DNA of 64,000 bases from Halovivax limisalsi (GTDB lineage: Archaea > Halobacteriota > Halobacteria > Halobacteriales > Natrialbaceae), in NCBI RefSeq assembly GCF_023093535.1, contig NZ_CP095757.1, positions 930,001 through 994,000 of the forward strand. Reading direction: 5' to 3'. Under the pieces are notes generated by a model. That model was not told where the DNA came from. It made no database searches and was given only the letters and a program-made list of their open reading frames with translations. This document shows, one piece after another, positions 19,647-54,764 of this stretch (positions are counted from its first letter, which is position 1; the number at the start of each line of letters is the position of its first letter). Made by a program: the position numbers and the translations under genes.

Positions 19647-19889
19647 TCAACGCCGTTCTCGACGCGCGTGGGCGTTCCACCGCTCGGAAAACGCCGACAG
19701 GTTCATCCCGGCCGCACAGTCCGCGCAGCAGTAGCGAATCGAGTCCGCGTATCGCTCCGAGAGCGACTCGGGCGGCGAGACGTCGATCCTGAAGAGCCGC
19801 GACGGCGCCACGTCACGATCGCACCGATAGCACCCGTAGTCGCGAGACGGACCGCGCGCTCCGGTGCCGGATCGCTCGACGGCCGTCAT
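19647..19889 (-). CDS. Small zinc-finger protein, copy A of a two-copy family
   Basis: An 80-residue protein with CYRCD near residue 23 and CCADC near 57, a four-cysteine zinc site, linked by RLFRIDVSPPESLSERYADSIRY and followed by AAGMNLSAFSERW. It is paralogous to the gene at 54119-54373 (shared CYRC, LFRIDV.PP..L.EKYADxxRYCCxxCAAGMNLS). Such small haloarchaeal zinc-finger proteins are largely uncharacterised. The ATG at 19889 gives an N-terminus like that of the paralogue (MTAVERSGTG versus MKSVERTTGG). It is divergent from a candidate structured RNA starting about 150 bp away, in the same arrangement as copy B. Confidence 0.8.
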   Translation of the reverse strand: MTAVERSGTGARGPSRDYGCYRCDRDVAPSRLFRIDVSPPESLSERYADSIRYCCADCAAGMNLSAFSERWNAHARRERR

Positions 19890-20001
19890 CCGCGCTCCCT
19901 CCGAACCGATAGCACCGATCGATCGGCGGACCTCGGCCCCCAACCCCCGAAAACGAAAGTGAGAGACGGATAGTGATTCGACTCTTCGGGCCACAGGTGT
20001 G

Positions 20002-20020
20002 CGAGACCTTTTTGTCTCGG
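20002..20020 (+). promoter_or_regulatory. Palindromic promoter-like element, copy A
   Basis: CGAGAC-CTTTTT-GTCTCGG, a perfect 6-bp inverted repeat around a T-rich centre. The same 19 bases occur at 54486-54504. The T-run centre is 27 bp before the ATGGC at 20038, where the conserved RNA fold begins, which matches the TATA-to-start distance of archaeal promoters. It could be a BRE/TATA with symmetrical flanks or a regulator site over the TATA box. Confidence 0.55.
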
Positions 20021-20037
20021 TGGTGTGTTGCGTAACA

Positions 20038-20141
20038 TGGCTGACCAAGCGGCTCGCTTGGAAGCCAGACGTCTCGGGTGTTGCCTCACCCGGGACTTTC
20101 TCTGCGCGGTCCCCCGCGACGGATGGAGACGCTGGCTTCCG
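20038..20141 (+). ncRNA. Candidate structured RNA, copy A (hairpin + three-way junction)
   Basis: Predicted fold: P0 CCAAGCG/CGCTTGG (20045-20051/20055-20061); P1 GGAAGCCAG/CTGGCTTCC (20060-20068/20132-20140) continued after a bulged A by CGTCTC/GAGACG (20070-20075/20126-20131); P2 GGGTG/CACCC (20076-20080/20087-20091); P3 GGGAC/GTCCC (20092-20096/20109-20113) with TTTCT in the loop. P0 and P1 share two G residues and so may alternate. The copy at 54521-54614 folds the same way with different bases in P0, P1 and P3. A 44-codon ORF starts at 20038, but its frame relative to the conserved bases differs from that of copy B, arguing against a peptide. No match known to me. Confidence 0.6.
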
Positions 20142-20425
20142 GCGGGAGCTACGGAACGCAATGTATTATAGCTACTGGAACGATCAGAAATTTATCCGTT
20201 TAGCTTCGGATGCGATTTCAGCTTGACCGTTGAAATGTTCGGCTACGATGGTTTCGAAAACGTGAGTACTGAGGCCTGTGCGTGTAATCGACCGGTATGA
20301 ACCGCGAGACGAATACGGGCAGTCGAAGGTCTCGGTGAATCGCGTGAACGACTTCTCCCGTTATAGATAGCTGGCGAACTGAACGACACGCTCGATCGCA
20401 AACGCCGGCGGCTTCGTTTTCGAAT
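20142..20425. other. Intergenic region, no gene seen
   Basis: About 280 bp between the candidate RNA and the 3' end of the nucleotidyltransferase gene. It is locally AT-rich at 20160-20225. A 21-codon ORF (20161-20226) is present but too short to support. No terminator T-run follows the RNA closely. Confidence 0.35.
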
Positions 20426-21130
20426 CTACCGCCTTCGTTCCAGTTGCCGTTCGAGGAACGAGAGGAGCGTTTCGATATCCTCGGTTGCGGCCGACGATTG
20501 ACCGAACATGCTCTTGAACCGGTGATCCAGACCGCCGTTTTCGATGAATGCGTGGGCGTCGCTCAACTGTTCTCGAAGCGCTGCAGCATCGCCACGATGC
20601 AGATGCATTTCGACCGAATTCAGGTCGATCGACGGAATCGCGGCGAGAACGTCGGCGAGATCCGTCTTCCGGCCACTATGGAGTTTCGCAGCGACGAGAA
20701 CTTCCCCATCGGCTGCTCGCGCCGTCGTAGATCGTGTCCCTCCCGAGATCGTGGTCGGGGAACTATGCGTACGTAGATACTCGAATGACCATTCCGCTTC
20801 GGTCTGTCTGCAGCCGAGACCGTTTACGAGGATGTCCACGCCCACCGGGTGAACCAACCCCTCGGTGCGCTCGAAGCATTCGATCTCGCGGTTGTAGATA
20901 GTCTCCGATGAGGGGACCTCGAGATCGGCCTGCCGTTCGAAACCGCGCGCCTCGAGGAACGCCACTATTTCGTCGTAGTCGTCCGGAGAAATGACGAGGT
21001 CCAGATCGGTGGAGAAGCGCGTCTCGAACTGGCTGATCGCGTAGCCACCGACGAGGACGAACCCGATGGCCGACTGCTCCAGTGTTTCGAGCACTTCGAT
21101 GAGTGCCTCGCTGCGGCCTTCTTGACTCAT
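20426..21130 (-). CDS. Nucleotidyltransferase (AbiEii/Type IV toxin-like)
   Basis: A 234-residue protein with the nucleotidyltransferase core: FVLVGGYAISQF (residues 23-34), then TRFSTDLDLVIS containing the Dx D metal pair (S-T-D-L-D), and a third acidic region at GVDILVNGL. It ends in a helical, basic tail. It is the second gene of a pair with an HTH protein (4-bp overlap), the layout of AbiE-type systems, in which the nucleotidyltransferase is a toxin that modifies tRNA 3' ends and the HTH protein is antitoxin and repressor. A plain regulatory or DNA-repair role cannot be excluded. Confidence 0.75.
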   Translation of the reverse strand: MSQEGRSEALIEVLETLEQSAIGFVLVGGYAISQFETRFSTDLDLVISPDDYDEIVAFLEARGFERQADLEVPSSETIYNREIECFERTEGLVHPVGVDILVNGLGCRQTEAEWSFEYLRTHSSPTTISGGTRSTTARAADGEVLVAAKLHSGRKTDLADVLAAIPSIDLNSVEMHLHRGDAAALREQLSDAHAFIENGGLDHRFKSMFGQSSAATEDIETLLSFLERQLERRR

Positions 21131-21798
21131 GATCGGGCTGGCTCGGTCCGGTAGCTCGAGTCACTATCGACGTCGTCGTACATTCGGGCGAGCATGTCGA
21201 GCGCCGATTCGAACGTCGCGTAGTGGTCGGTTGCGAACGCCACGGTCTCCTGGAGTGAAACGACTGGCCGTCCGTCGACCGTCGCCGCTTCGATCGTTGC
21301 CCCTGGCTCGAGAACGACCTGTATGGGGCCGTCGATCGCTTCGACGGGTTGCCGGTCCCGCGAGACCGGGATCTCGAATCGATCAAAGAAGTCAATCCAC
21401 GCGTCGAGATCGGATTCGCGCACGGCGATGAACAGCGGATAGTCGTTCGGGCTGCGCGCGACCTGGTAGCCACCGTGCGTCCAGACGTAGACCGCATCGA
21501 TGGCGGTGAACGCGTACTCCATCCCTGCAAACTGTGGCAGGACGTACGCCTCCGTAATCGACGGGGGCGAAACGTCCGCCGTCGTCGTCAGGAATTCGAG
21601 CCCGGCGTCCCGGATCGATCGATCTACGAGCCGTAGCCCGTCATCGTACGCGACGTATCCCGCCTCCTCGATACGGTTTACAACGCGACGGATCGTCTCC
21701 CGGTTTTCGTCGATCTTCCGTGCGACTCCCGAGATGGTATCTCCCGGGTCGAGCGCGAGTAACACCTTGAGTTCCTTCTCCCCACACACTTCGTACAT
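21127..21798 (-). CDS. HTH protein, probable antitoxin partner (AbiEi-like)
   Basis: A 223-residue protein. Residues 5-65 form a winged helix (ELKVLLALDPGDTISGVARKI, ENRETIRRVVNRIEEAGYV). The rest is alpha/beta and recalls the C-terminal part of AbiEi-like antitoxins. It precedes and overlaps the nucleotidyltransferase gene (ATGA at 21127-21130). The ATG at 21798 is preferred to the upstream Met because the promoter (AT-rich box at 21826-21840) and dyad sit just before it. Pairs like this are common in haloarchaeal accessory regions. Confidence 0.72.
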   Translation of the reverse strand: MYEVCGEKELKVLLALDPGDTISGVARKIDENRETIRRVVNRIEEAGYVAYDDGLRLVDRSIRDAGLEFLTTTADVSPPSITEAYVLPQFAGMEYAFTAIDAVYVWTHGGYQVARSPNDYPLFIAVRESDLDAWIDFFDRFEIPVSRDRQPVEAIDGPIQVVLEPGATIEAATVDGRPVVSLQETVAFATDHYATFESALDMLARMYDDVDSDSSYRTEPARS

Positions 21799-21806
21799 TC
21801 TATAGT

Positions 21807-21840
21807 TGCACAATCGTGTGCATTAGTTAAAATATTTACT
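21807..21840 (-). promoter_or_regulatory. TATA box and operator dyad of the HTH/nucleotidyltransferase pair
   Basis: Read on the complement, an AT-rich box (AGTAAATATTTTAAC, 21826-21840) is followed by the inverted repeat TGCACA-CGAT-TGTGCA (21807-21822), 9 bp before the ATG at 21798. The dyad lies between the TATA box and the start codon, a position where a bound dimer would block transcription; autorepression by the HTH protein is the obvious model. Confidence 0.55.
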
Positions 21841-54118: not shown

Positions 54119-54373
54119 TTATTCGTCCGACGGTTCGGCTCCCCGGCGAGCGCTCGCCGTCCACCGTCGGGAGACGTCGGACAGATTCATCCCGGCCGCA
54201 CACCCCTCGCAGCAGTATCGCACCGCGTCCGCGTACTTCTCCACGAGCGCGGCCGGCGGTGCGACGTCGATTCTGAAGAGTGCGGGTGGCGCCACGGTGC
54301 GACCACACCGGTAGCACGTGCCGTTTCGAGGCGTCTCCCCCGTACCGCCGGTCGTTCGCTCGACGGATTTCAT
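54119..54373 (-). CDS. Small zinc-finger protein, copy B of a two-copy family
   Basis: An 84-residue protein paralogous to 19647-19889. It has CYRCG near residue 20 and CCEGC near residue 51 as the zinc site, the linker ALFRIDVAPPAALVEKYADAVRY, and AAGMNLSDVSRRW after it. The start at 54373 (MKSVERTTGG) matches the paralogue's. About 148 bp upstream on the opposite strand begins the second copy of the candidate structured RNA; the intergenic part also shares GACGGATAGcGATTCGACTCT with copy A. Confidence 0.8.
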   Translation of the reverse strand: MKSVERTTGGTGETPRNGTCYRCGRTVAPPALFRIDVAPPAALVEKYADAVRYCCEGCAAGMNLSDVSRRWTASARRGAEPSDE

Positions 54374-54485
54374 CCGAGATCACCGCGGTAGTGGCCCGAA
54401 GACCGTCCGGTGGATCTCGGCTCCCGATTTCCGAAATCTGAAGTCGACGACGGATAGCGATTCGACTCTCCGTACCGCGAGCGTG

Positions 54486-54504
54486 CGAGACCTTTTTGTC
54501 TCGG
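54486..54504 (+). promoter_or_regulatory. Palindromic promoter-like element, copy B
   Basis: CGAGAC-CTTTTT-GTCTCGG, identical to 20002-20020. The T-rich centre is 26 bp before the ATGGC at 54521 that begins the conserved RNA fold. Identity of the palindrome in both copies, while neighbouring bases differ, suggests it is under selection. Confidence 0.55.
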
Positions 54505-54520
54505 AGGTGTGTACGCAATC

Positions 54521-54614
54521 ATGGCAACCAAAACCCCTGGAAGGGTTCTTGGAAGCCACGTCTCGGGTGTCCCAGCACCCGGGGCATTTCTACCCCTCGG
54601 AGCGCGTGGCTTCC
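54521..54614 (+). ncRNA. Candidate structured RNA, copy B (hairpin + three-way junction)
   Basis: Predicted fold: P0 CCAA + AACCC / GGGTT + TTGG (54528-54536 / 54543-54552, one bulged C); P1 GGAAGCCACG / CGTGGCTTCC (54551-54560 / 54605-54614); P2 CGGGTG / CACCCG (54564-54569 / 54576-54581); P3 GGGG / CCCC (54581-54584 / 54593-54596) with TTTCT in the loop. Compared with copy A, P0 and P3 have different bases that still pair, and P1 changes from CCAG/CTGG to CCACG/CGTGG. The ORF from the ATG at 54521 (35 codons) reads the conserved segment in another frame than copy A does. Confidence 0.6.
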
Positions 54615-54764
54615 GTTCTGATAGTTGACTCGATGGGTAATATAGTACTAGTCATTAGGTGAAACTAACGTCGGGTACCGGGTAGCGGAGGTCGCTTCGT
54701 GCGGCCGACGCCTCCAATACTGCGCTACGACGATGGCCCTACCGATTCGGCCGCGGGACGCTCG

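Follow-up and report, generated by a model that had tools for sequence, protein, structure and literature searches.

Copy number of plasmid R1 (IncFII) is controlled by the CopA/CopT-tap-repA system, and YUNR is the U-turn motif that occurs in known pairs of antisense RNA and target. IncK relatives of the CopA/CopT system are the subject of PMC10724649. The locus presented here resembles this system in several respects: a structured leader precedes a short ORF on the predicted target mRNA, the stop of the leader ORF overlaps the start of the putatively regulated gene in 69 of 79 copies, a variable recognition loop carrying the YUNR motif would act as a compatibility group, and a putative countertranscript, here deduced from the sequence, would cover the leader. 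It differs in that the target would be a small zinc-finger protein and not a replication initiator, and in that the element is chromosomal and archaeal, with about 29 copies per cell. The product encoded downstream is of the same general kind as the haloarchaeal CPxCG or C(P)XCG zinc-finger micro-proteins (PMC6562870, PMC11241148), for which the abstracts and literature searched mentioned neither a common structured leader nor coupled translation. Small non-coding or antisense transcripts are likewise represented in haloarchaea by sRNA132 (PMC6560208) and by the antisense transcriptome (PMC6523106).

A family of structured elements

The window, a stretch of 64,000 nucleotides, is part of the 3.9-Mb chromosome of the haloarchaeon Halovivax limisalsi. 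A preliminary description of this DNA had reported a structured RNA in two copies. Both copies are real, but DNA and covariance-model searches show that they belong to a family of 29 copies in the genome. Copy B was correctly placed at 54521-54614, whereas copy A was one base off (20038-20141, against 20037-20140 with the model). The parts of the two copies are as follows.

20037-20140, minus strand: copy A structured element (leader; its plus side is the RNA described earlier), 70.9 bits with the covariance model
20164-20178, minus strand: copy A leader TATA-like motif CCAGTAGCTATAATA (read on the minus strand), about 24 nt before GGAAG
20126-20140, minus strand: copy A P1 arm forming the leader 5' end, GGAAGCCAGCGTCTC on the minus strand; covariation, with a pairing bias favouring this strand
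20060-20075, minus strand: copy A P1 arm, partner strand; covariation
20076-20091: copy A P2 hairpin GGGTG-TTGCCT-CACCC, hypervariable loop at 20081-20086
20092-20113: copy A P3, GGGAC (20092-20096) and GTCCC (20109-20113); covariation
20045-20061: copy A P0; doubly changed pairs
19886-20038, minus strand: copy A ORF1, 50 codons (MLRNTPPRQKGLAHLW...RERG), stop overlapping the zinc-finger ATG
19647-19889, minus strand: copy A zinc-finger gene (MTAVERSG...CYRC...CCADC...)
20002-20019, plus strand: copy A palindrome CGAGAC-CTTTTT-GTCTCG, TATA-like box 24-28 nt before the plus-strand RNA start
54521-54614, minus strand: copy B structured element, 78.7 bits with the covariance model
54638-54651, minus strand: copy B leader TATA-like motif CTAGTACTATATTA (read on the minus strand)
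54370-54522, minus strand: copy B ORF1, 50 codons (MIAYTPPRQKGLARSR...GDLG), ATGA overlap with the zinc-finger gene
54119-54373, minus strand: copy B zinc-finger gene (MKSVERTTGG...CYRC...CCEGC...)
54486-54503, plus strand: copy B palindrome CGAGAC-CTTTTT-GTCTCG with TATA-like box

All the stems proposed earlier (P0, P1, P2 and P3) are present in both copies.

P0: CCAAGCG/CGCTTGG in copy A, CCAAAACCC/GGGTTCTTGG in copy B
P1: GGAAGCCAG../CTGGCTTCC in copy A, GGAAGCCACG/CGTGGCTTCC in copy B
P2: GGGTG/CACCC
P3: GGGAC/GTCCC in copy A, GGGG/CCCC in copy B

Upon folding, copies A and B beat all of 200 dinucleotide shuffles (z of -4.2 and -3.3, respectively). The covarying homologues anticipated in the preliminary description were found in number with the covariance model, and covariation was evaluated on an alignment of 100 copies from many genera. 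In this alignment, whose fitting to the structure favours the score, the covariation score was reached by none of 500 shuffles. Pairing was observed in 92.5% of the pair cells, against 31-58% when the partner was slid by 1-3 columns, and 14 pairs had both partners changed, where shuffles gave 7.8. Stems P0, P1 and P3 covary across the 100 copies, all five pairs of P0 being doubly changed and P3 alternating between GGGAC/GTCCC and GGGGC/GCCCC. The sequence of P2 is invariant in these copies; it never varies in Natrialbaceae and therefore yields no covariation signal there. With distant relatives added, a further helix that is absent from the model used for the alignment (P2ext, GUCUC/GGGRC) is paired in 99% of cells and displays four doubly changed pairs.

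Several of these strands have more than one possible partner. For GGAAGCC the candidates are the 3' arm (P1) and the bases around +1. The outer part of the P1 partner strand (20060-20075) can also pair near the ORF1 start codon, with the bases that surround it, and GGGRC can pair with GUCUC or GYCCC. The structural switch envisaged previously is plausible, since strands compete for pairing. The alternative pairings are conserved; a riboswitch, which would combine alternative folds with an invariant ligand-binding core, is a conceivable reading. In genus g52, which belongs to another family, the GGAAGCC-type competition persists although its sequence has changed (AUGGUCUUC / GGAAGACC / GGUCUUCC), which supports the prediction of a real switch. 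Part of the copies also display a possible fourth helix around the C-rich P3 strand. Two copies (L067, around 3002 on the minus strand, and L236 in genome G003) have a P3 loop enlarged by 50-60 nt that contain two perfect hairpins, a type of copy kept in two species.

The element occurs in 24-32 copies per genome across five Halovivax genomes. Almost every named relative that a pattern search recovered belongs to the Natrialbaceae. The covariance model was later widened with distant relatives before a class-wide search of 391 sampled genomes, which gave matches in 63 genomes of the family to which Halovivax belongs and in 12 from other families; one further family has the element in 12 of 28 genomes, with at most 15 copies each. 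The element is present in most sampled Natrialbaceae and sparse in other haloarchaeal families. The earlier statement that no named family corresponds to it held: the window has no Rfam match at gathering level, and the two elements have no credible match at E up to 10. Literature searches found no multicopy covarying haloarchaeal RNA family with this architecture. This appears to be a large unrecognised element family that nobody seems to have described. A phage collection gave no match, and a pattern search of IMG/VR returned two matches, of which L202 was dismissed by eye as a homologue and L201 scores with the covariance model. On this viral contig the leader copy (L201:8514-8602, minus strand) precedes a 154-codon ORF without obvious zinc motif, and its 5' strand still matches GGAUGCC through a compensating change; a virus may have borrowed the switch.

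Leader strand, ORF1 and zinc-finger neighbours

The +1 bases read CAT on the plus strand, that is ATG on the minus strand, and a minus-strand start codon stands at the end of the element as ATG in 96 of 100 copies and as GTG in one more. The possibility that ATGG on the plus strand serves as a leaderless start codon was rejected: some copies (L103, L162 and L195) have a broken ATGG with the minus-strand start codon kept, and the frame differs between copies. The ORF opened on the minus strand, ORF1, is 28-65 codons long in most copies. The ATG of the zinc-finger gene overlaps the ORF1 stop by 1-20 nt in the 69 copies mentioned above, 40 of them exactly as ATGA, whereas a control in which the ORF1 stop was moved in frame by 33-150 nt gave a mean of 0.7 overlaps and a maximum of 5. 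A Shine-Dalgarno-like motif lies ahead of the zinc-finger start in 46 of the 69 overlapping copies. In the window, the overlaps are located at 19886-19889 (copy A) and 54370-54373 (copy B). Substitutions in ORF1 are equal at all three codon positions, and the idea that ORF1 encodes a conserved peptide was rejected on this ground. Its role is for this reason taken to be coupling rather than a peptide; equal substitution is what is expected of a pure coupling ORF and is no proof of translation.

On the minus strand, a TATA-like motif, CAGTAG(A/T)TATAAG, precedes GGAAG by about 24 nt in nearly all copies; in 90 of 100, it starts at an offset of 22-24 beyond the helix. Of 99 cases in which the two strands differ in stability over the P1-P2-P3 part, 71 favour this strand (71:28, p = 4e-6, uncorrected for relatedness). 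The 5'-end/P0 part is more stable on the plus strand in 78 of 98 (78:20, p = 8e-11, also uncorrected). The G-U bias of P0 alone is neutral and was left out of account. In g52, several copies have a clearer, canonical-looking TATA ahead of GGAAG, and the leader is followed immediately by an ORF that shows, by eye, a SWIM-like zinc motif and has no Pfam match.

The adjacency to zinc-finger genes, also anticipated in the preliminary description, was borne out. A divergent small ORF of CxxC type lies upstream in 138 of 165 copies, against 1, 1 and 5 at three control positions; in about one sixth of the copies, no zinc-finger ORF was found by the pattern used. Within the genome, 23 of the 29 copies adjoin a gene of the zinc-finger family seen in the window, and nearly all genes of this family adjoin a copy of the element. 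The proteins are of the form CYRC...CCxxC in the window and at most Halovivax copies and CPxCG...PCGC in many other genera, while in Halostagnicola the zinc finger is fused to a weakly HalOD1-like part. Sequence searches of Pfam, NCBIfam and PDB gave no credible match for the family of the window. A second gene of the same family (G000:C1:2964778-2964945) lies about 1 kb from copy c10 and has no element of its own. Also next to copy A, at 20426-21813 on the minus strand, a nucleotidyltransferase-like ORF overlaps an upstream helix-turn-helix-like ORF by a few bases; the two resemble, by eye only, defence or toxin-antitoxin pairs.

This evidence strongly supports reading the element as the structured 5' leader of an mRNA, presumably transcribed from the minus strand, in which translation of the zinc-finger gene is coupled to that of ORF1.

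P2 loops and the putative countertranscript

The P2 loop, 6-7 nt in length, is hypervariable on an invariant stem. YUNR stands at the loop start on one strand in about 50% of loops, against 12% in shuffled loops. Identical loops were observed in 1 of 1853 within-genome pairs, about what random loops would give, and in 40 of 8503 between-genome non-orthologous pairs; between-genome identity is nine times as frequent (Fisher p = 0.003), a contrast that undetected orthologues may inflate. Two tandem copies 1.1 kb apart (L318, G001:C1:2400252-2401493) are identical over the 5' 75 nt and carry unrelated loops, CTCTGA and TGTCAG; their P3 side also differs. In the syntenic Halovivax orthologues L217 and L239, the loop is exactly inverted (GACCTAG / CTAGGTC) and the stem unchanged, and the loops of two further orthologue pairs look inverted with one mismatch. 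Template switching in hairpins gives loop inversion, and the inverted P2 loops suggest mutations of this type. Taken together, apical loops that are hypervariable, rich in YUNR and hardly ever repeated within a genome suggest CopA/CopT-like control with separate addresses.

The plus strand displays a TATA-like box of its own at -28 to -24 from the RNA start, inside a palindrome with covarying arms. Its spacing is fixed (-28), and it overlaps codons 8-13 of ORF1, the palindrome of copy A also encoding PRQKGLA in that frame. The genome has 24 near-matches to the Halovivax palindrome, every one of them at an element copy, with none in the control; as it is present only there, its use as a generic promoter was rejected. 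The box is compatible with a promoter whose countertranscript would begin opposite the start codon of ORF1; the same bases could instead owe their conservation to an RNA hairpin, a DNA operator or the ORF1 codons. The plus-strand box is absent from g52, and a countertranscript would for this reason not be universal.

These observations are best accommodated by a minus-strand leader with a coupled ORF1-zinc-finger gene that would be repressed by a plus-strand countertranscript acting through the P2 loops, a reading to which we assign a probability of about 0.55. The proposed minus-strand mRNA would comprise, in order, the promoter, a leader of about 100 nt, the ORF1 start codon and the zinc-finger gene. 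In the leader, P1, P2 and P3 would meet in a three-way junction, with hairpin P0 after it, and the zinc-finger protein would be made only if ORF1 is translated. The countertranscript would start opposite the ORF1 start codon, from its TATA-like box in the palindrome, and form two hairpins, one of the 5' end with P0 and one of the extended P2. Its first contact with the leader would be made by the P2 loops, which are hypervariable and complementary; it would then block initiation at ORF1, hence synthesis of the zinc-finger protein, in the manner of CopA on CopT-tap-repA. Differences among the loops of the 29 copies would allow each pair to recognise its own partner only. More tentatively, and at somewhat less than even odds, a haloarchaeal chromosome may hold about 29 paralogous, mutually insulated antisense-RNA switches. 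Each would be a pair of leader and countertranscript that has a loop address of its own and gates a coupled leader ORF with its small zinc-finger gene, and the loops would have been re-addressed after duplication, partly by hairpin inversion.

Competing explanations and significance

The strongest competitor, which we nevertheless consider rather unlikely, is a leader acting only in cis, with no countertranscript. Such a leader would alternate between P1, with the start codon free, and a 5'-end helix trapping the ORF1 start codon, under the control of a ligand, zinc, temperature or the zinc-finger protein itself. It draws on the same evidence for leader and coupling (conserved start codon, ORF1/zinc-finger overlap) and on the competition of three strands for GGAAGCC, which is kept in g52 where the plus-strand TATA is not seen. 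It leaves unexplained the YUNR-rich hypervariable loops that are distinct within a genome, the plus-strand TATA-like palindrome of fixed spacing found only at copies, and the greater plus-strand stability of the 5' part.

A stand-alone small RNA of the plus strand, the reading of the preliminary description, would have its own promoter and would act on other targets or as partner of the zinc-finger protein. Covariation, the promoter-like box at -28 and the zinc-finger neighbours would all suit such an RNA. We judge it improbable, as it ignores the conserved start codon and the ORF1/zinc-finger overlap of the opposite strand, the promoter motif at fixed spacing on that strand and the bias of P1/P3 towards it. 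These features favour the minus strand, which probably carries the main transcript; the plus-strand RNA may exist as the countertranscript.

An element operating at the DNA level (MITE, attachment or recombination site, operator palindrome) would suit the palindromic, dispersed and multicopy nature of the copies and the P2 loops inverted between orthologues, but this explanation is disfavoured and very improbable given that, in one Halovivax genome, 20 of 24 copies are matched by a syntenic copy in a second genome, that pairing is biased towards G-U on defined strands, that start codon, ORF overlap and promoter spacing are all kept, and that loop inversion is the outcome of template switching in a hairpin.

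If the countertranscript reading is true, this RNA family, absent from Rfam, would constitute a large chromosomal archaeal family of structured leaders in which a leader ORF of neutral sequence mediates the coupling. One cell would naturally contain dozens of RNA switches orthogonal to each other, and how RNA-RNA specificity evolves once genes have been duplicated would become directly testable. The haloarchaeal zinc-finger micro-proteins would then share a common regulatory logic.
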